From the NCBI GenBank assembly GCA_021846665.1, contig JAJZWM010000002.1, positions 1 to 59,741 on the forward strand: a stretch of DNA of 59,741 bases, in the 5' to 3' direction. The translations under genes were made by a program, and so were the position numbers. This DNA is from Nanobdellota archaeon. GTDB lineage: Archaea > Nanobdellota > Nanobdellia > Parvarchaeales > Parvarchaeaceae. Below are positions 209 through 10,338 of this stretch, in pieces. The first letter of the stretch is position 1. The number at the start of each line of letters is the position of its first letter. The notes under the pieces are model-generated. The model was not told where the DNA came from and searched no databases. It saw only the letters and a list, made by a program, of their open reading frames with translations.

Positions 209-742
209 TTATCTACTACCATTCTCACTTTCGCCGCAATATATACACCTATCTATGTTTTCCCTATCATATCGGAATTCTCCTGGGCAATTTTCACTTA
301 TAAATAGAGCACCTACAATCTTAGTAGGTTGGCCGTATTTAATAATCTCTTCTATATGGCCATTGATATAACCAAGAGTAATCTTTCCTTTACTTTCTAA
401 GTATTTATGGATATCAATTGTCCATTTAGTTTTAGCTTTTTTAGAGTTTATATAATATATTCCGCCTTTACCATATAAGATACTGTAACCCTTTTCAGGA
501 TTTTGAAGATTGAGGATATATAGATCGCCATTCGGCAAATGCGCTTTATTTTCTAAGTCTCTTAATACACCCTCAAGATAAGAGCCTTCTGCATGTATAG
601 TAGAGTGGTGCTGGGATTTAGGTAATAGGCCTCTATGGAATATTATCCCTCTATTATCGTATTTATTTATCTCAGTATAGGTATTAAAGTCTCTCTTATA
701 TGATGCTTCTACACCACCAATGCACCCTTCTATTCCTGCCAT
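209..742 (-). CDS. hypothetical protein with C-terminal CxxC (CIYCGES)
   Basis: 177-aa ORF, good codon structure, no family recognised. Confidence 0.6.
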   Translation of the reverse strand: MAGIEGCIGGVEASYKRDFNTYTEINKYDNRGIIFHRGLLPKSQHHSTIHAEGSYLEGVLRDLENKAHLPNGDLYILNLQNPEKGYSILYGKGGIYYINSKKAKTKWTIDIHKYLESKGKITLGYINGHIEEIIKYGQPTKIVGALFISENCPGEFRYDRENIDRCIYCGESENGSR

Positions 743-885: not shown

Positions 886-1296
886 TTAACTTTTATCAGT
901 AACTTTTTTGAAAAGATCTAGATAAGCTTTTACCTTATCATAAACGCGATCTATTACTGTCTTTAAGTCTTCTAAAGATGCAGCAGATTCAAACATATAC
1001 CCGCTTATATTTCTAAATTTTATAAGTAAGTTAAATGCATCTTTTATTCCATCTAATTCTTTATAGATATCCATAATCTTGTTATCATTTACCACCAAAA
1101 TAAATGCATCTAATATGTTGTGTGTTTTTGGGACCTCTTTGTTTTTTGATAATAGAATAGCTTTCATCCCTATCTCAAGAGCCATTTCTAAACAGTATAA
1201 TGCCCCATCGTAATCCTTTTGCTTTATACCGGCACTAGCCAGATCAAACCATCTAGTAGCGCTCTCCATTGCTTTTTTAGATACTATTCTTTCCAT
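886..1296 (-). CDS. HEPN domain protein (module 1)
   Basis: Helical HEPN pattern (ALYCLEMALEIGMKAILL...KTHNI...RNISGYMF); overlaps the upstream nucleotidyltransferase gene by 13 bp. Confidence 0.75.
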   Translation of the reverse strand: MERIVSKKAMESATRWFDLASAGIKQKDYDGALYCLEMALEIGMKAILLSKNKEVPKTHNILDAFILVVNDNKIMDIYKELDGIKDAFNLLIKFRNISGYMFESAASLEDLKTVIDRVYDKVKAYLDLFKKVTDKS

Positions 1297-1871
1297 TCCA
1301 GCACTAAATTATTACCCATTTTTAGCCAGGTATACCTTATTTTCTTAAGATTACTAATAAATTCACTTAATATTCCATCTTTTTCGTATAAGATTATACC
1401 CTCCTCTAATAATGAAATATAAAATGGTCTAAACTCTGCTAAATCTTCTTTCTTTAAAATAACCTCACTTATGTACAGATATAACCCTTTTGTAACTAAT
1501 TTCTGTCTAATAGAGTCAATTTCCTTAATTATTTGCTCTAATTTATCGAAATATGTTAATACATTTCCATCAACAACGACTAATACATCTATGTCACTAT
1601 AACTATTAAAAGTTCCCCGAGCAATTGATCCAAAAAGCATAATTCCAAGAACATTTTTATCCTGTTTAACTTGATCTACAAATGTTAAGATATAATTTTG
1701 TATATCTACGTCTAATTTCAAAAAATTTACTTTTTTCTTTATAAATTCATTAATAACATCAGAAAAGGTAACTTTTCTATTCGACTTTGCCTGTATCACA
1801 GCCTTTGCATCAACAAGTGTATTATATGCATTTTCATCAAGTAAGGTCTGCTTATATTTTTTATTTCTCAT
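1284..1871 (-). CDS. MNT-type nucleotidyltransferase with N-terminal RHH-like segment (module 1)
   Basis: GSIARGTFNSYSDIDVLVV nucleotidyltransferase motif; N-terminus KQTLLDENAYNTLVDAKAVIQAKSNRKVTFSDVINEFI resembles ribbon-helix-helix. Confidence 0.82.
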   Translation of the reverse strand: MRNKKYKQTLLDENAYNTLVDAKAVIQAKSNRKVTFSDVINEFIKKKVNFLKLDVDIQNYILTFVDQVKQDKNVLGIMLFGSIARGTFNSYSDIDVLVVVDGNVLTYFDKLEQIIKEIDSIRQKLVTKGLYLYISEVILKKEDLAEFRPFYISLLEEGIILYEKDGILSEFISNLKKIRYTWLKMGNNLVLEWKE

Positions 1872-1881
1872 ATGTATTATG

Positions 1882-1896
1882 TATACACTGTGTATA
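1882..1896. promoter_or_regulatory. inverted repeat TATACAC-t-GTGTATA upstream of the MNT-1 start
   Basis: Perfect 7-bp arms, 1-nt spacer, 10 bp upstream of the start codon. Confidence 0.55.
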
Positions 1897-2042
1897 TATA
1901 AAAGTTAGTTCGAATTTAGAACATTTTATTCGGAGATACTAACATACCTTTTAACATAGATTTGATCAAATGCCACTTAATTACAAGGTTATTATGAAAT
2001 TTATACCTAAATAAGCTAAAACTCTAATAATAGAAATAAAGC

Positions 2043-2588
2043 TTACATGGTCTTTACTTCTTTCTTCCTCTCATCTCTTAACTCAAATATAACCGTTTGT
2101 ATCTTCTTAGCTTCATCTACATTCAAGGCCCTAAGATAATTTACGCTTGGTATCCGCCTATTATTTACCATTATCATTCCACCAATAGCAGATATATAAA
2201 GAGAAGTTAATCCAAGAATCCTATCTAATATAGATCTGTTAAGTATAACATCCTGAACCATCTCAAGAGGCAATGAATCTACTGAGTAACCTATTACACC
2301 TCTTCCGCTTATTAGCCTCTTATTTGTTATCCAGTATCTATATTTATTGTAAGATACCATAGAAACGAAAATTCCAATTAGTATAATGGCGACCATAATA
2401 CCAAAGAAGGATATAAGAATATACGGAGTTGGAAGGGGCGGAGTACCGGTTGCTAAAAGTAAGGAACTAAAAGCCGCAATAACAATACCAGCTACAACCA
2501 CTCCAATGAATCTCTGCAGTATGAAACCTTTTTTGTTGGGCCTAACTTCATATTTTACAACTTCTCCCTGCTGCAAAGAAAAAGGCAA
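2043..2588 (-). CDS. membrane protein with bacterial PH-like (DUF304/YdbT-type) domain
   Basis: Two TM segments followed by YRYWITNKRLISGRGVIGYSVDSLPLEMVQDV. Confidence 0.75.
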   Translation of the reverse strand: MPFSLQQGEVVKYEVRPNKKGFILQRFIGVVVAGIVIAAFSSLLLATGTPPLPTPYILISFFGIMVAIILIGIFVSMVSYNKYRYWITNKRLISGRGVIGYSVDSLPLEMVQDVILNRSILDRILGLTSLYISAIGGMIMVNNRRIPSVNYLRALNVDEAKKIQTVIFELRDERKKEVKTM

Positions 2589-2769
2589 TTCTGCTTCTGC
2601 CGCTATTATGATAAGAGGTTTATAAGATATTTAAAGCTTTCTACAGTAATGTGGAAAATAATAAATAAACTACCCATTTATCGTAATTATGACCTTAACC
2701 CCTGATTAAATTTGAAGATTAATTAAAATAGACAAAAAATCGGACAAATAGCTGTTTTGCACGAGTTAT

Positions 2770-3363
2770 CTACGACTTTGAGTCTTTATCCCCTTCCAGC
2801 ACATAGAAATCCGGATAAACATCTTTATAGAGGGCTTTCCCTTTATAATTAATAGGGAAAGTTCTCCATCTGTCTTCTTCAAGTTTTTCTTCATACTTTT
2901 TCTCAAGTACTTCTTCCCATTTTCCGGGTTCATACTCTGTAATATCCGTGGTAAGGCCATGTTTCAAATAACGAGGATCAAATGAGTAAAGACTCAATAT
3001 AAGTACTCTTTTAAAGTTCCTGCGACTAGTGCTGTATAAATCTAATACGTCTATATCGAATTGAGGGACGGTATGAAATTCAGGGTCTGAAGGAACATAT
3101 GTGAGTATAATTTTATAAATCCCTGTTTTAATTGTATCTTTAATGCCGGTTTTAATTTCTGTCCGACGATGGCCAGTGCGATCAACGTTATAACAATTCT
3201 TCTGCAGAAAAACTGACATTTCATATAATTTTCTTATTCTTTCTATTTCCTCGTTTCCGGTGTTAGTCGGACCAACAGACCTGCCACAAATTGGCTTTCT
3301 AACCTCTTTTTCATGTTTATTGTTTTCCTCGCTAATTATACCGTCTAATTTTTCTTTTCCCAT
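2770..3363 (-). CDS. hypothetical protein
   Basis: 197-aa ORF, no family recognised. Confidence 0.5.
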   Translation of the reverse strand: MGKEKLDGIISEENNKHEKEVRKPICGRSVGPTNTGNEEIERIRKLYEMSVFLQKNCYNVDRTGHRRTEIKTGIKDTIKTGIYKIILTYVPSDPEFHTVPQFDIDVLDLYSTSRRNFKRVLILSLYSFDPRYLKHGLTTDITEYEPGKWEEVLEKKYEEKLEEDRWRTFPINYKGKALYKDVYPDFYVLEGDKDSKS

Positions 3364-3560
3364 ATTTTACCTTCTAATATGGTCTAAAACTTTATCTAGA
3401 GTCTCTTTTTCTGGCATTTCCATAGTTTATCTTCTTAAATTCATTACTACGGAGTATTATAGAAAATAGGTTATATAAATACTTTATTGGGGAGGATAAA
3501 AAGATTAAAAACAAGAGTTTAATTGATTAGTCATGTTTTACATCTTGCAAATACTTAAAC

Positions 3561-4100
3561 TTAGGAGTTTAATTCCTTTACACCCTTTTTCTCCCACATT
3601 TTATGGCTATTTTTAATTATATTTTCAGTTGTACTTTCCATCCAAAGAGAATCTACGTATTCTTTGTTTATTTTCAGAACTTTTCCCATTAGACCAACCT
3701 TTTTACCACCAGACTTACTAAATAAAGTTATAGATGCCTTATTTAACGGAATTGTATTCATTAGGATGATTTTTATACCCCTATTAAGCACACTTTTAGC
3801 TATATCATATACCATATAATAAGATAATCCGCTACCTCTAAATCCTTTAGCTACAAAATACCCTATCTCTCCAACATGTTTACTATAATAAATCCCATGT
3901 ACTGTTGTTGGTCTAGTAACATTAAAACTAGCAACTTTCTTTGAATTATAAAAAGCAGTCAATATATAGTTATTAATCTGGCGTCTACTAACTTTTTTGC
4001 CATTTATAATTACTCTAGAGATAACTCTTTCGCTCTGTACTTTTTCTATTTTTACTTCTCTACCATCTTTAAGTTTTATCAACATATCGAAATTAAACAT
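3561..4100 (-). CDS. GNAT-family N-acetyltransferase
   Basis: VGEIGYFVAKGFRGSGLSYYMVYDIAKSVLNRGIKIILMNTIPLNKASITLFSKSGGKKVG pattern. Confidence 0.7.
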   Translation of the reverse strand: MFNFDMLIKLKDGREVKIEKVQSERVISRVIINGKKVSRRQINNYILTAFYNSKKVASFNVTRPTTVHGIYYSKHVGEIGYFVAKGFRGSGLSYYMVYDIAKSVLNRGIKIILMNTIPLNKASITLFSKSGGKKVGLMGKVLKINKEYVDSLWMESTTENIIKNSHKMWEKKGVKELNS

Positions 4101-4202
4101 TATAGATTTATTAACTTACATAATATAGATATATTTTTATTGAGAATTTTATACAGAACTTATTAACTTAGATTTATTTGCTCAAAAATAATAAAATAGT
4201 TA

Positions 4203-5078
4203 ATGGAATTAGAACTTGGTATATTACTAGCGTTAGCTACACTTTTTTTATGGGGTGGCGGAGATTTCCTTATACAAAGAACAACAAGAAAATTTGGAGA
4301 TTGGGAGACTACATTTCTTATTGCAGCAGTAGGTACTGTCATTCTAACACCACTTGCTTATCAGGATATAATAAGGTACCTAAGTTCTGTAACAATAATT
4401 GTAGTATCAATTATAGCTTCGGTTTTTGTGATTGCTGCTTCAATATTTGATTTTGAATCATTAAAAAAGGGAAAAATTGCAGCGGTAGAGCCTCTTCTAG
4501 CCCTGGAAATCCCAACGGTTGCAGTTTTCTCATTTATCTTATTAAACAAAGGATTATCGGCATTCGAGATATTGCTTATTTCTATAGTAATTATTGGTTT
4601 AGTTCTTGTTTCATTAAAGGAATATAATTTCAAGCTATTAAGATCAAAAGGACTTGAAAAGGGGGTGATATTAATGACAATTGCAGCCATTCTTATGGGA
4701 GGAACTGCTTTTTTTATTGGATACGGTTCACGGATAACTAATCCTTTTTTTATAAACTGGTTTATTGATTTAATCATCACTATCTCTATAGCTATTTACC
4801 TTTTCTTTAATGGTAACCTGCACCATCTTATAAGAAATACCCTAAAATTTCCAAAACTTGTACTCACTACCTCTATTTTTGACAATCTTGCATGGATATC
4901 GTTTGCAGCTGCTGTACTTTATATACCGATAACTATAGCAATGACTGTATCCGAAAATTTCATAGTAGTTGCAGTTTTATTAGGCTTAATTATTAATAAA
5001 GAGGCTTTACGATCTCATCAAAAAATTGGATTTATTCTAGCACTTGTTGGAACAGTTATACTCTGCTTATCAATATAA
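4203..5078 (+). CDS. EamA/DMT-family transporter
   Basis: ~10 TM segments in two repeats; terminal GFILALVGTVIL. Confidence 0.75.
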   Translation: MELELGILLALATLFLWGGGDFLIQRTTRKFGDWETTFLIAAVGTVILTPLAYQDIIRYLSSVTIIVVSIIASVFVIAASIFDFESLKKGKIAAVEPLLALEIPTVAVFSFILLNKGLSAFEILLISIVIIGLVLVSLKEYNFKLLRSKGLEKGVILMTIAAILMGGTAFFIGYGSRITNPFFINWFIDLIITISIAIYLFFNGNLHHLIRNTLKFPKLVLTTSIFDNLAWISFAAAVLYIPITIAMTVSENFIVVAVLLGLIINKEALRSHQKIGFILALVGTVILCLSI

Positions 5079-5156
5079 AAGAAAAGAGAGATTTTTATTA
5101 TAGATATAAATACAGATTAAAGATATGTTAAAATTGTTATATTATCAAACTATTTA

Positions 5157-5546
5157 TTATCGATTATATTTCATTAGTTCATTAAGTTTTTCCTCAAATT
5201 CTCTCTTAGATATCTCACCATTTACATATCTTCTCTTTAATATATCTTCTGGACTTTCGTAGTTATACCACCTATAATGAGGTCTGTGATACCTGTATTT
5301 TCCTGGTAAAAACCAGCTTATAATCCATAATATAAAAAGCACACCTAACAATGCGTCAAATGCATTCCAAAATATGTTATGGGAATAATTAAATGGAAAA
5401 GAGATTATAGCTAATATCGCAGCAAAAACAGCTGCAACTATAACAATAAGTATTAAAATACGAAAAATTAAACGAAATAATCCATCAAAAGGATCGAAAT
5501 CATATTGATTAGAAGCCCAATTAGTTTTCTGTGTTTTACTTGTCAT
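5157..5546 (-). CDS. membrane protein with C-terminal SHOCT domain
   Basis: Two TM segments, then SPEDILKRRYVNGEISKREFEEKLNELMK. Confidence 0.75.
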   Translation of the reverse strand: MTSKTQKTNWASNQYDFDPFDGLFRLIFRILILIVIVAAVFAAILAIISFPFNYSHNIFWNAFDALLGVLFILWIISWFLPGKYRYHRPHYRWYNYESPEDILKRRYVNGEISKREFEEKLNELMKYNR

Positions 5547-5865
5547 ATCTTAGAAATGCTTTATAAATTTAAATGATTTATTATAATAAATATAATAATA
5601 TTTTAATATATTTTATATTAAATATATATTTTATTATTAAATCATTTAATTTGATATAAATAATAAATATTTTCATAGATTGTTTTTATTGAGTTATCTA
5701 TTATACATAATATGATATAATAATATAATTTATAATAATTATATAAATAATATTATATTGATATTAGTAATATCTAAATATATGTAAAATTATGAATTCA
5801 TAAATAATGCAATATCTTTCTTTTAATTTAAATGATTCTAGACGCAATAATAAGTATTAATTATC
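5547..5865. other. extremely AT-rich intergenic region
   Basis: ~320 bp between genes; 5581-5640 contains no G or C. Confidence 0.85.
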
Positions 5866-6288
5866 TTATGCTATCAAATGTTTTATTCCTGATATTATAT
5901 CATTCTCATTCAGATTTTCATTAGCGATCTTAAAAACTTCCTCATCAAACTGTTCACTTTTATATTCATGTATAAGTTTATTTCTAATGTCCCTTAACCT
6001 CCTTATCTTCTCGTTTATATTGTCTTTAAAAATTTCTGAAAAAGCTGCGATCAATGATAAATCTTCTCCAACGACTTTTAAATTTAGCTCTTTGTAAAGA
6101 ATAGCGAGTATGTCTATCTCAGTATCGCTTATCAATTGGAGTCTTCTCTCAACAGTGCTTTTAACAAGTATGTTGCTTTTTTTATATTCCTCTTGTGTCT
6201 TTGGTAAAACTTGGGCAAGTTCCTTTGAAAATCTTTCTAAATCCAGAGATTTTTCTAGTATCCTATCCTTTATTGTTTCATTATTCAT
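5866..6288 (-). CDS. HepT-like (DUF86) HEPN protein (module 2)
   Basis: RRLRDIRNKLIHEY carries a canonical RX4HXY motif; overlaps the MNT gene by 4 bp. Confidence 0.82.
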   Translation of the reverse strand: MNNETIKDRILEKSLDLERFSKELAQVLPKTQEEYKKSNILVKSTVERRLQLISDTEIDILAILYKELNLKVVGEDLSLIAAFSEIFKDNINEKIRRLRDIRNKLIHEYKSEQFDEEVFKIANENLNENDIISGIKHLIA

Positions 6289-6797
6289 ACAGTTTTTAAT
6301 GCCTCTCTTAATGTATGCCTTAAATCGGCAGATTTCTTTATTAAAGCAATTGTATAATCATACAAAACAGAACTATTTGAGCAGTATAAAACAACTGCAT
6401 CATTAAAAACGTTGATTTGAACTTCAGCAGGAAGAGAATTGATTATAGAAAGATCTAAGTAATCTTCTCCACCCAAAAATGATACATAATCAGAGTATAC
6501 CTTTGAAGAATCCTCTGATTTATATAATAATAAACCTATATCGACATCTCTGAAATCAGGATCTTTTCTAGCGTAACTGCCAAATAAAATGACTGATAGT
6601 ATCCTATCATCTTTTTTTGACTTTTCTACTATCTTTTCAATTAAGAAATTTATTTTATTTATAGTCTTTGTCCATCTAATCAAAGATTCCTCTGCAGCTT
6701 TACTTATGGCCCCTCTGCCGTAACCAAAACGCTTCATAGCAGTAGCTCTAAATGATTGATCAATTCTTTCTGTAGAATATATCTTTATTTGAGACAT
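6285..6797 (-). CDS. MNT-type nucleotidyltransferase (MntA-like) with N-terminal RHH-like segment (module 2)
   Basis: LFGSYARKDPDFRDVDIGLLL; N-terminus RIDQSFRATAMKRFGYGRGAISKAAEESLIRW is RHH-like. Confidence 0.82.
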   Translation of the reverse strand: MSQIKIYSTERIDQSFRATAMKRFGYGRGAISKAAEESLIRWTKTINKINFLIEKIVEKSKKDDRILSVILFGSYARKDPDFRDVDIGLLLYKSEDSSKVYSDYVSFLGGEDYLDLSIINSLPAEVQINVFNDAVVLYCSNSSVLYDYTIALIKKSADLRHTLREALKTV

Positions 6798-6800
6798 ATT

Positions 6801-6814
6801 AGAACTATAGTTCT
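6801..6814. promoter_or_regulatory. 14-bp perfect palindrome AGAACTATAGTTCT upstream of the MNT-2 start
   Basis: Direct reading; 3 bp upstream of the start codon. Confidence 0.55.
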
Positions 6815-6939
6815 TTTAGTATAAATAATTTATTATAAAGTTATATAAGAATACTTAATTTATTTATAGTAGTATTCTAAGATATAAATCAAAAGCAAAT
6901 AAATAAAACCAATTTAAATAATAATAAGCAATTAAAAGT

Positions 6940-8298
6940 TTACTTTATCTTTGAAAGATCTTCCTTGTAGGTTTCCTTGGAAAGCAAAGCTGAAGATAGT
7001 ATGAATATCTCACCTACTATTATCCCTATCGCTGTAATCCACCAAAAAGAACCTAAAGCCGCATGTAATGTAGTTACGTTTGTAGTATTAGTTAAAGGAT
7101 TCACTGCACCAACTGCTGCTAGTATTATAACTGAACTCCAAGAACCCACTATAAACCCGCCGTTAAATGCTATCCCTACACCAGTGCTCCTTACTCTAGT
7201 AGGGAATTTCTCTGCCAGGTAAGCAGGTATAACTCCATACGCTCCTGTTGTTACAAATGCCAATACTGATGCTAAAAAGCCGGCCATTAATATACCGTAA
7301 GCTCCAGTGAACATCCCATACATTGTTGGAAATGCCAGTATTATTGCTAATCCTGAAAATATATATAATGCTTTCTTCCTTCCAATAAGATCACTTATAT
7401 AACCTGAGGAGAAGTACCCAAGTAATGAAGTTAAAATCGCGACTATAACTATATACAAGAAATCAGGAAAACCTATCCCAAAGAATTCTGGCAAAGTAGT
7501 TGGATAAAATCCTAAAGTTAAACTGTATATCCATGCTATTCCTGTCATTGCAAGTAAACCTACAAAAAATGAGTTTCTATACTGCTTGTTCGAAAAAACT
7601 GTTTTAATTGGATGTGGATCAAGCTTTTTCTTCTTACTTATATCTGACCAAAGATATGATTCAGGCATTCTCAGCCTTATTATTAAACCAACTATTACTG
7701 GTATTATACCTATAAAGAAGAACACTCTCCATCCAGCACCGTAAGCAGCGCTTATAAATGAGCTACCATAAGCTGTCCTTAAAGTAAGATATACTCCTCC
7801 GGCTAGGGCATAACCGATAGGATAACCGCCTTGTAAAAGAGAGCCTATTCTGCCCCTGTATTTTGTATTTACACTTTCTGTCACTATAGAAGAGCTGTTC
7901 CCGTATTCTCCTCCGGCAAATACGCCGGTTATCATTCTGAAAAGCGCAAGAAATATTGGTGCTGCTATACCAATCTGTGCATAAGTAGGCAACAGGCCAG
8001 TCGCAAATATTATAATTCCCAATCCTAATAAGGTAATTACCATTGCCAGTTTTCTTCCTCTTCTATCTGCAAATCTACCGAATATAAGACCACCGACGGG
8101 CCTGAAAACAAGGCTTATGAAATATATTGCAAACGCCCCTATTATAGCTAGGATAAGATCACCAGCTGGGAAAAACAACGTAGCGATCACTGGAACAAGA
8201 AGAAACATTGCGCTTAAGTCATAAGAATCTAGAATCCAGCCTGATAAACCGCCAGCAAATATTCCTTTTAGTTTTTTGCCGTTTATACCCAGTTGCAT
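6940..8298 (-). CDS. MFS transporter (metabolite:H+ symporter type)
   Basis: 12 TM segments; GRFADRRGRKLAM and SDLIGRKKAL MFS motifs. Confidence 0.88.
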   Translation of the reverse strand: MQLGINGKKLKGIFAGGLSGWILDSYDLSAMFLLVPVIATLFFPAGDLILAIIGAFAIYFISLVFRPVGGLIFGRFADRRGRKLAMVITLLGLGIIIFATGLLPTYAQIGIAAPIFLALFRMITGVFAGGEYGNSSSIVTESVNTKYRGRIGSLLQGGYPIGYALAGGVYLTLRTAYGSSFISAAYGAGWRVFFFIGIIPVIVGLIIRLRMPESYLWSDISKKKKLDPHPIKTVFSNKQYRNSFFVGLLAMTGIAWIYSLTLGFYPTTLPEFFGIGFPDFLYIVIVAILTSLLGYFSSGYISDLIGRKKALYIFSGLAIILAFPTMYGMFTGAYGILMAGFLASVLAFVTTGAYGVIPAYLAEKFPTRVRSTGVGIAFNGGFIVGSWSSVIILAAVGAVNPLTNTTNVTTLHAALGSFWWITAIGIIVGEIFILSSALLSKETYKEDLSKIK

Positions 8299-8358
8299 TT
8301 AAATTTCAACATTTTTAAGTATTTAAATATTACTTTTATTAGTAATCTATGGGTATAT

Positions 8359-9081
8359 CTAAATTTTCTCTTTGGAAGTTTTTGCATATACCTTTACAGG
8401 TATATTAGTATCTATATATAATGTAAAATCTTGTTCTTGCAAAAGGTTTCCCTTCTTTTTAGTATCTCCTAAAGATAAGGATATACCTGGAAATATGTGC
8501 CTAAATGATTGTTTTAAGTATTTTAAAGAATAATCTCCATTGGTATCTAATTGTACCAAGGTATTATTATCGTATAGCGCTGTAAATTTAGTTAGATCCT
8601 TGGATGGAATATACTTTAAATCTATCTCAATGCTGTGGATATTTCTCTCTTTATCCATAGAATAAAATTCAAAGTGATTTAAATCTAAAGGCATAAGGCG
8701 AGTTTTATATCTTTTACCTACATCTGGAAGTTTACCATATAATTCATCTTTGCCGTAGTAGTATTCATCACTAGCTATAAGCCAATTGTGTACATTCATT
8801 TTAAGCTTTTTTCTATCGATATATACTATTTCGTCAACCAAAGCCCCATTTTTTATTTCTGGTTTCCAGTAAGCGAAGGAGTGACTCAAATTAAATACTT
8901 GTGCTGAGCGATCACCAGATACAGCATCAATCAAGAGGACTTCTAAGCTCCTATTATGTCCCTTCCTAGTTACCATAAATTGTCCAGGGAACTTTTCCGG
9001 CTGTATGTAATCTAGTTCATCCGGATTATCTACAGGAAGATCTCCCATATCAAATTTTATGGCCTTTATCTTATTTTCCAT
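8359..9081 (-). CDS. hypothetical protein
   Basis: 240-aa ORF, no family recognised. Confidence 0.55.
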   Translation of the reverse strand: MENKIKAIKFDMGDLPVDNPDELDYIQPEKFPGQFMVTRKGHNRSLEVLLIDAVSGDRSAQVFNLSHSFAYWKPEIKNGALVDEIVYIDRKKLKMNVHNWLIASDEYYYGKDELYGKLPDVGKRYKTRLMPLDLNHFEFYSMDKERNIHSIEIDLKYIPSKDLTKFTALYDNNTLVQLDTNGDYSLKYLKQSFRHIFPGISLSLGDTKKKGNLLQEQDFTLYIDTNIPVKVYAKTSKEKI

Positions 9082-9164
9082 TTTATTATATAATTATACA
9101 CGTATTAATAATTATTTCAGAAGATATTTTAGAAAATCCTATATTTAAATCACTCATCGTCATG

Positions 9165-9587
9165 CTACAAATTTTCTTCTATTATGTTATTACACAATTT
9201 AACTGCATTTCTTGTTAGATCTAAGTATTTTAGTGCAAGAGTTTCTAAGTCTTTTTTATCAATGTTATAATTGAAGGTATACCCACTCACCTGTCTATTC
9301 ACAAGTAATTCTGGCAGGAGATATCTTGTAATCTCTCTTATTTCTTCTCTTTTTTCCTTAGATAGTTTTTCTGAGTTTATTATCTTACTGTCCACGATTT
9401 CTATTATGTTGTGCATTTTTGGTGGCTCTACGCGGAATGATAGAAGCAAAGCCTTTAATGCGATCTCGACAGCCATTTCTTCGCTGTACAAAGCCGTATT
9501 GTAAATTTTTTTATCTGCCATTGTCTCCGCAGTCAAAAGCCAATTTTTCGCTATTTTCATAGCTTCTGCCGCTGTTTCTATTCCCAT
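9165..9587 (-). CDS. HEPN domain protein (module 3)
   Basis: ALYSEEMAVEIALKALLLSF..PPKMHNI..RQVSGYTF; paralogous to module 1; 10-bp overlap with the MNT gene. Confidence 0.78.
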   Translation of the reverse strand: MGIETAAEAMKIAKNWLLTAETMADKKIYNTALYSEEMAVEIALKALLLSFRVEPPKMHNIIEIVDSKIINSEKLSKEKREEIREITRYLLPELLVNRQVSGYTFNYNIDKKDLETLALKYLDLTRNAVKLCNNIIEENL

Positions 9588-10156
9588 ACAATTATCTCAC
9601 CAAACTCTGTATTTACTCGTTTATGATGTATATTTGTAATATATTTAAGGAATTCAGAAACTGCATTACCACGTTGAAATAAAACTATGCCATAATCTAC
9701 TATTTCAAAGTATATTGGATTAATTTTTTTCACGTCTTCTATGTTTATTATAAGCGGACTTATGTAAAGTGATAAACCTCTTTTTATTAAATTTTCTTGA
9801 TATTGTTCCAATTCTCTCCTACTTTTATTTAGATATTCTAGATAATTTAGGTACTTTGAATCGGTTATTACTGCTATGTCTATGTCACTAAATTTAGTAA
9901 AATTACCCTTTGCAACCGAACCAAAAAGGATTATTCCCAAAGTATGTGGATTTTCGACTATCTTATCCACAAAAGCCATTATGTAGCTTTTGATATCCTG
10001 ATCCATTTTCAACATGACCAGCTGTTTTCCAACCATCTGTGTTATGACTTCTGTAAATGAGCTTCTTCTGCCTGTATTCCTTTCGAAAATTTCTTTAGCC
10101 TCTTTTAATTGTGAATATGCTTTATTTGTCAGTAAAGTCTGTTTAAACTTTCCCAT
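9578..10156 (-). CDS. MNT-type nucleotidyltransferase with N-terminal RHH-like segment (module 3)
   Basis: LFGSVAKGNFTKFSDIDIAV; full-length similarity to the 1284..1871 product (KQTLL..AY..L..AK..). Confidence 0.83.
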   Translation of the reverse strand: MGKFKQTLLTNKAYSQLKEAKEIFERNTGRRSSFTEVITQMVGKQLVMLKMDQDIKSYIMAFVDKIVENPHTLGIILFGSVAKGNFTKFSDIDIAVITDSKYLNYLEYLNKSRRELEQYQENLIKRGLSLYISPLIINIEDVKKINPIYFEIVDYGIVLFQRGNAVSEFLKYITNIHHKRVNTEFGEIIVWE

Positions 10157-10158
10157 AA

Positions 10159-10181
10159 TATATGTATGTAGTTTACATATA
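10159..10181. promoter_or_regulatory. inverted repeat TATATGTA-N7-TACATATA upstream of the MNT-3 start
   Basis: Perfect 8-bp arms immediately upstream of the start codon. Confidence 0.5.
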
Positions 10182-10338
10182 TAAGTTTTCTTATTTCTTA
10201 ATTTTCCGAATTATTTATCGTTTTGTATTAAGTATCTTATTAAATAAAAGTTAATTTATGAGGTAAAAACTCTAAATTAAAAGATATAATAGGTATTTAT
10301 AACTCAGAATAATTTAAGCTGCAAAAAAGTTGAAGCTT

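Follow-up and report, generated by a model that had tools for sequence, protein, structure and literature searches.

Three gene pairs within 9.3 kb of contig JAJZWM010000002.1 from a Nanobdellota archaeon (assembly GCA_021846665.1, family Parvarchaeaceae) each encode a nucleotidyltransferase (NTase) of the MNT type with an additional N-terminal domain, followed by an overlapping HEPN gene. We analyzed a stretch of 59,741 nucleotides of this contig, hereafter called the window. Each pair is probably a HEPN/MNT (type VII) toxin–antitoxin (TA) operon whose antitoxin fuses a ribbon-helix-helix (RHH) domain of the VapB type to an MntA-like NTase, the RHH part repressing the operon and the MNT part neutralizing the HEPN protein. 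A neutralizing enzyme and an autorepressor joined in one chain is the best-supported reading of these proteins; DNA binding, repression, AMPylation, and toxicity are inferred. The host is a tiny, acid-loving archaeon with a genome of 725 kb, of which the window is contig 11.

An N-terminal RHH-like domain on three MNT proteins

The sequence-only reading of the window had reported three MNT-then-HEPN pairs on the minus strand with overlaps of 4–13 bp. Positions and Pfam matches checked in the window place all six genes as described, with the MNT gene upstream in every pair and overlaps of 13, 4, and 10 bp in modules 1, 2, and 3, respectively. The chance of finding three pairs so close together in this genome is about 5e-4 according to a simple length estimate made post hoc; clusters of such pairs also exist elsewhere, in further genomes of the genus as well as on one contig from Thermoplasmata. 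Here and below, genome-wide statistics come from sequence searches. Modules 1 and 3 belong to one family (family A) and module 2 to another (family B), and the two differ in both their HEPN and their RHH types.

The upstream genes of all pairs match NTP_transf_2/Polbeta above the curated Pfam cut-offs. The motif GSX10DXD is intact in the MNT proteins of module 1 (G81 S82, D93, D95) and module 3 (G79 S80, D91, D93) and invariant across the family A alignment. The module 2 protein has GSX9DXD (G73 S74, D84, D86) together with a conserved D115; in the family B alignment the motif is invariant and D115 nearly so. The AlphaFold2 model of the module 3 protein (predicted local distance difference test, pLDDT, of 90.3) finds its best folds in the PDB among MNT/MntA antitoxins (8xeo, 7ae9, 7bxo).

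Since the NTase domain starts only at residue 52–68 of the three proteins, the N-terminal extensions of about 46–52 amino acids (aa) are real. The extra residues claimed for each NTase are present in all three and kept across 22–24 relatives in the genus. These extensions are most likely RHH domains of the VapB type. The RHH resemblance noted earlier is now well supported, through homology to free-standing antitoxins, the module 3 model (for modules 1 and 3), and palindromes upstream of the genes.

Among 371 genomes of the phylum searched with the family B profile, full-length matches were found only in the window's genus; one full-length relative comes from another genus of the same family (G031). 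Outside the window's genus, the profile splits: positions 1–57 match free-standing frames of ~85–110 aa, and positions ~47–167 match MNTs without extension. At most of the 17 free-standing loci that we read, the downstream gene overlaps and is PIN-like; five sampled downstream neighbors exceed the Pfam PIN cut-off. The N-terminal profile of family B aligns with free-standing proteins of 79–95 aa over 48 columns (hhalign probability 99.6%), and members of the family match FitA-like_RHH (1.4e-5 for one, best 6.6e-6), RHH_6, ParD, RHH_1, and Antitox_RHH. For family A, VAPB_antitox is matched by 15 of 22 relatives, below its curated cut-off. The N-terminal profile of this family leads to proteins of 63–83 aa in Thermoplasmata, of which two (L197, L198) adjoin PIN-like genes, on their upstream side, and one (L203) a RelE-like gene, the partner types being read from sequence.

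In the module 3 model, an extended segment (residues 1–10), a helix (11–28), a turn, a second helix (34–50), and then a linker helix lie ahead of the MntA-like core. This corresponds to a beta-alpha-alpha layout, the strand being extended and unpaired in the monomer. In nearly every pair of extensions with a measurable synonymous divergence (dS), the nonsynonymous divergence (dN) is far below it, with dN/dS similar to that of the MNT core; the extensions are under purifying selection. As a separate observation, one free-standing RHH-like antitoxin beside a PIN gene (L150:843-1127) scores above the cut-off of PF08823 (PG_binding_2), which several of its relatives match weakly. Judging from these matches, RHH antitoxins may be counted among the members of PF08823 or be mistaken for them.

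HEPN partners as predicted toxins

The HEPN proteins belong to PF05168 in modules 1 and 3 and to the HepT-like PF01934 in module 2, all above curated cut-offs. In the alignment, the module 2 protein has an intact Rx4HxY motif, RNKLIHEY (R102/H107/Y109). In HepT of Shewanella oneidensis, the R and H of this motif confer toxicity and the Y takes AMP (PMC4621449, PMC7641770). The earlier description of the HEPN proteins as RNases that the NTase can AMPylate holds for module 2 only, because family A HEPN proteins lack Rx4HxY; modules 1 and 3 have no Rx4-6H at all. In the 21 aligned family A HEPN proteins, Rx3GY stands in its place, with R in >90%, GY invariant, and a tyrosine at the position expected of the histidine. 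These proteins also conserve the invariant K-x-H of a PKxH motif (H59), as well as E37, E41, and K45; the module 1 residues are H59 of PKxH, and R95 and Y100 of Rx3GY. Several other MNT-associated HEPN proteins are without the motif, and some PF05168 proteins have a conserved histidine elsewhere (PMC3710099). One protein closely related to the module 2 HEPN (L046:1060-1488) reads RNKLIYEY, with the catalytic histidine replaced by tyrosine, and provides a natural test of the need for RNase activity in the module.

In every intact pair examined, the partner of the RHH-MNT protein is a HEPN protein, and no cognate PIN-domain toxin was found. At four loci the RHH-MNT gene is intact and HEPN is lost or damaged: it is deleted in L025, truncated by an insertion in L084, interrupted by a nonsense codon in L031, and absent from L053. 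Three of these loci belong to family A. Conversely, no intact HEPN gene without its MNT was seen in 55 genomes; a candidate orphan in G007 was discarded, as the gene is cut by the contig end. Loss of HEPN while MNT stays, with no orphan HEPN, is as expected for a toxin, and four losses versus zero orphans are suggestive of toxin-like behavior. The sequence inserted into the family A HEPN of L084 (10689 onward), next to an intact RHH-MNT gene, contains short repeats (CCTTCACCCnAAAnnATGATTTGGCTTGTAC...).

Modules 1 and 3 might instead encode no TA system, the HEPN protein serving a two-chain NTase with another target as its scaffold or substrate-binding subunit and the RHH domain regulating the operon. 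We consider this unlikely. The missing Rx4-6H of family A speaks for it, as do the motif-less HEPN domains with which other NTases bind their substrates (PMC3710099) and the aminoglycoside adenylyltransferases that are among the nearest PDB folds of the module 3 model after the MNT antitoxins. However, the antitoxin-first overlapping gene order and the patchy distribution of the modules point to a TA system, and so do, in small numbers, the three family A loci that kept MNT and lost or broke HEPN, with no orphan HEPN found. Moreover, a genome-scale screen cited in PMC3710099 scored motif-less HEPN proteins as toxic.

Candidate operators and a model for repression

Palindromes that we consider candidate operators lie in front of the three MNT genes (table 1). 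In most members, the upstream-region alignment places the palindrome ~40 bp or less from the start, overlapping a TATA-like element. In comparison with dinucleotide shuffles, p <= 0.05 is reached upstream of 14 of the 38 family A genes and 12 of the 25 from family B, versus 2 of 40 other window genes and 0 of 13 MNTs without RHH (Mann-Whitney 8e-7, 2e-7, and 1e-4 for palindromes against controls). Orthologues are 70–85% identical at positions -40 to -1, and positions -80 to -41 are mostly near the shuffle level. The module 1 palindrome contains a perfect core, TATACAC-A-GTGTATA, within 1882-1897. That of module 2 ends 3 bp ahead of the start codon and, allowing <=1 mismatch, has no second copy in the whole genome, as should be the case if the repressor acts locally on its own operon. 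Family B palindromes vary by subgroup (AGAACTATAGTTCT, AAGGTATTAATACCTT, ACTAGTATAACTAGTATAA), each being common within its own; TATATGTAnnnTACATACATA is likewise common within the group of module 3, whose candidate operator is also conserved in Thermoplasmata orthologues.

That an MNT antitoxin regulates its own operon has a precedent: SO_3165, an MNT without RHH, binds its own promoter and represses it 1.6-fold (PMC4621449). The RHH domain may therefore strengthen or specialize an existing habit. The same precedent favors a different view, in which the extension is an RHH-like dimerization element that has lost DNA binding, the palindromes belong to the promoter, and the MNT part accounts for whatever repression there is. 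The AT-rich, TATA-like promoters and the members without a palindrome fit such a view. It appears improbable, more so than the two-chain NTase discussed above, as none of the 13 MNTs without RHH has an upstream palindrome, and the palindromes are kept between orthologues and similar within RHH subgroups.

Under the reading that we prefer, of an RHH autorepressor fused to a neutralizing NTase, the RHH part would dimerize through its N-terminal strand, and the RHH-MNT dimer would repress its own operon by binding the palindrome, which overlaps the TATA box and the start region there. The MNT part would neutralize HEPN by binding and, most likely, also by (poly)AMPylation. In module 2, where HEPN would be a canonical RNase toxin with Rx4HxY, the predicted target of AMPylation is Y109. 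The divergent HEPN proteins of modules 1 and 3 would owe their toxicity to a different residue, with the invariant PKxH histidine as a candidate, or to a non-catalytic mechanism. If the antitoxin were degraded or titrated away, the toxin would be released and the operon derepressed.

Several observations weigh against this reading, in addition to the missing Rx4-6H. Scanned singly, no family A or B extension exceeds a Pfam RHH cut-off, and the N-terminal profiles retrieved nothing beyond chance matches from PDB sequences. The NCBIfam MntA/HepT cut-off of 60 bits is missed by the MNTs (31.6–40.1 bits) and by the module 2 HEPN (32.8 bits). Structure prediction, proposed with the sequence-only reading as a check on the N-termini, produced a helix-turn-helix at pLDDT 90 for module 3 and pLDDT values of 27–54 for the N-terminus of module 2, a model too poor to be used for fold comparison. 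Only monomers were modeled, in which an intermolecular ribbon cannot show, as the strand pairs only in the dimer. Some members have no significant palindrome; relatedness inflates the palindrome counts and statistics, and many control genes may sit inside operons. That the extension is an unrelated helical linker, as could be argued from the sub-threshold single-sequence Pfam matches and the competing PF08823 matches in family B extensions, is nevertheless very unlikely given the profile match to free-standing proteins in the antitoxin position of PIN operons, the several RHH and VapB families matched across members, and the beta-alpha-alpha layout of the module 3 model.

Table 1. Predicted features of the three modules (window coordinates)
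Feature	Position	Strand	Basis
Module 1 MNT antitoxin, 195 aa, N-terminal RHH	1284..1871	-	Pfam; family alignments
Module 1 RHH-like domain, residues 1-52, VapB (PF02697) type	1716..1871	-	VAPB_antitox matches; module 3 model; VapB relatives beside PIN genes
Module 1 HEPN, family A, PF05168, predicted toxin	886..1296	-	Pfam; alignment
Module 1 candidate operator TTATATATACACAGTGTATACATAA	1877..1901	-	Shuffle p 0.003; footprint
Module 2 MNT antitoxin, 170 aa, N-terminal RHH	6285..6797	-	Pfam; alignment
Module 2 RHH domain, residues 1-46	6660..6797	-	Related to free-standing antitoxins of PIN operons
Module 2 HEPN, HepT-like, PF01934	5866..6288	-	Pfam; NCBIfam HepT_toxin below cut-off; alignment
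Module 2 candidate operator AGAACTATAGTTCT, perfect 14-bp palindrome	6801..6814	.	Alignment; shuffles; genome search
Module 3 MNT antitoxin, 192 aa, N-terminal RHH	9578..10156	-	AlphaFold2; PDB fold comparison
Module 3 RHH-like domain, residues 1-50	10007..10156	-	AlphaFold2 model; profile and Pfam matches
Module 3 HEPN, family A, PF05168, predicted toxin	9165..9587	-	Pfam; alignment
Module 3 candidate operator ATATATGTAAACTACATACATATAT	10158..10182	-	Shuffle p 0.02; footprint

Around the modules, the genes at window positions 209-742, 2770-3363, and 8359-9081 (177–240 aa) have no Pfam match at E 10. A very AT-rich intergenic stretch (5580-5830) lies between module 2 and a small membrane-protein-like gene. 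PADLOC returned generic nucleotidyltransferase matches only. Scanning for sigma-70 promoters and terminators yielded nothing informative, in keeping with an archaeal source.

Repeated fusion, spread, and relation to known systems

The RHH-MNT set comprises 25 family A and 24 family B proteins (window included), nearly all beside a matching HEPN. In a further family (family C: L084:14087-14500 and four sister genomes), an RHH domain is joined to another MNT with a HepT partner. This RHH domain matches VAPB_antitox (5e-4) and, above its cut-off, DUF7557. Without RHH, the MNT part of family C occurs commonly across the phylum; the fusion itself was encountered in the window's genus only. In a tree of the MNT cores, from which the extension was removed, the family B fusions form one group (support 99/95), as do those of family C (94/83), nested inside plain C-type MNTs, and the family A fusions group with MNTs bearing a winged helix or no extension. 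A single clade of all RHH fusions was rejected on this tree (approximately unbiased test, p-AU 4e-60), as was a clade of B and C (p-AU 5e-6), and the N-terminal profiles of families A and B gave no alignment. The three modules are thus not one system; they fall into two families with independent fusions. At least three captures of RHH by MNTs would be the simplest reading of these trees and profiles. Ancestral presence of RHH followed by many losses is possible, and a poor fit to the unrelated RHH types.

Close family A relatives come from metagenome-assembled genomes labeled Nanoarchaeota or Candidatus Parvarchaeota, in keeping with a Parvarchaeum-like DPANN host, and full-length members occur in Parvarchaeota/Nanoarchaeota, Micrarchaeota, Marsarchaeota, and Thermoplasmata. 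Family B is found in the window's genus and in at least 4 of 250 Thermoplasmata genomes searched, one of these matches starting at profile position 13. The modules move horizontally, because strongly supported neighbors in the tree belong to different phyla: L040 and Marsarchaeota L101, L029 and Thermoplasmatales L092, and L050 and Thermoplasmata L095. Parvarchaeota and Micrarchaeota physically interact with Thermoplasmatales (PMC5864196), and this contact may explain the route of transfer. Searches of viral contigs, plasmids, and phages gave no full-length relative, the sole viral match covering 31 residues of the MNT motif. Taken as a whole, the matches are best read as indicating that RHH-MNT/HEPN modules are shared by acidophilic archaea of several lineages.

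Other MNT proteins with an N-terminal DNA-binding domain ahead of a HEPN gene were noticed. Pairs related to family A in an uncultured archaeon (L108:9668-10862) and in Prometheoarchaeum (L110:1475-2640, an Asgard metagenome-assembled genome) have a winged-helix-like N-terminus. So does an NTase directly upstream of a small HEPN-like gene on contig 31 of the window's own genome (G000; L212:2180-3313), and each separate MNT-HEPN pair noticed in that genome thus has an MNT with a DNA-binding-like N-terminus. These differ from the fusions described here in having a winged helix, as read from sequence, instead of RHH, and a separate origin. Contig 33 of the same genome encodes a 260-aa NTase (L213:2019-2801; ~272 aa in most genomes of the genus), which probably corresponds to cls.004259 of PMC6393860, a conserved MNT-HEPN single-chain protein of DPANN archaea.

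Among characterized systems, the modules most resemble the type VII pair HepT/MntA (SO_3166/SO_3165) of S. oneidensis (PMC7641770, PMC4621449), with which they share an upstream MNT with GSX9-10DXD, an overlapping downstream HEPN, Rx4HxY in module 2, and the MntA-like fold of the module 3 model. They differ from it by their antitoxins of 170–195 aa with N-terminal RHH, whereas known MNT antitoxins are <150 aa and stated to have no predicted DNA-binding domain (PMC7641770, PMC4621449), and by the HEPN proteins without RNase motif of modules 1 and 3. As in archaeal VapBC with RHH-type VapB (PF02697/COG1753), an RHH-type protein is the first gene of an overlapping TA pair; here, the partner is HEPN and not PIN, and an enzyme domain follows RHH instead of a toxin-binding tail. 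The paREP1 proteins of Thermoproteales also join RHH to a component of the HEPN/MNT network, but on HEPN and with no operon with MNT reported, whereas here RHH is on the MNT antitoxin (PMC2701414). The survey that described these fusions did not describe RHH-MNT and regarded HEPN-MNT as unconnected to other parts of the TA network (PMC2701414). We found no description of RHH-MNT fusions in the literature searched, subscription literature lying outside the search. The modules are best read as a HEPN/MNT (type VII) variant with a dedicated autorepressor domain, new to that literature.

HEPN/MNT has been called the most abundant TA module in prokaryotes (PMC7641770), and the control of its operons is little known because MNT antitoxins are without a predicted DNA-binding domain. 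The fusions offer a modular version in which repression and enzymatic neutralization can be separated for testing. They show that RHH domains pass from one TA class to another, and they connect the HEPN/MNT pair with the RHH/PIN network. In family A, HEPN proteins that lack the RNase histidine form a group amenable to study, in which one can ask whether such proteins are toxic and by what means. More tentatively, RHH may have been captured repeatedly from VapB, in at least three fusions within one acidophilic lineage that spread to co-occurring Thermoplasmata, Micrarchaeota, and Marsarchaeota, with HEPN binding and AMPylation state altering operator occupancy and the family A HEPN acting as a toxin with a non-canonical active site. 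If this were true, covalent toxin modification would be coupled to transcription, as an enzyme-based counterpart of conditional cooperativity.

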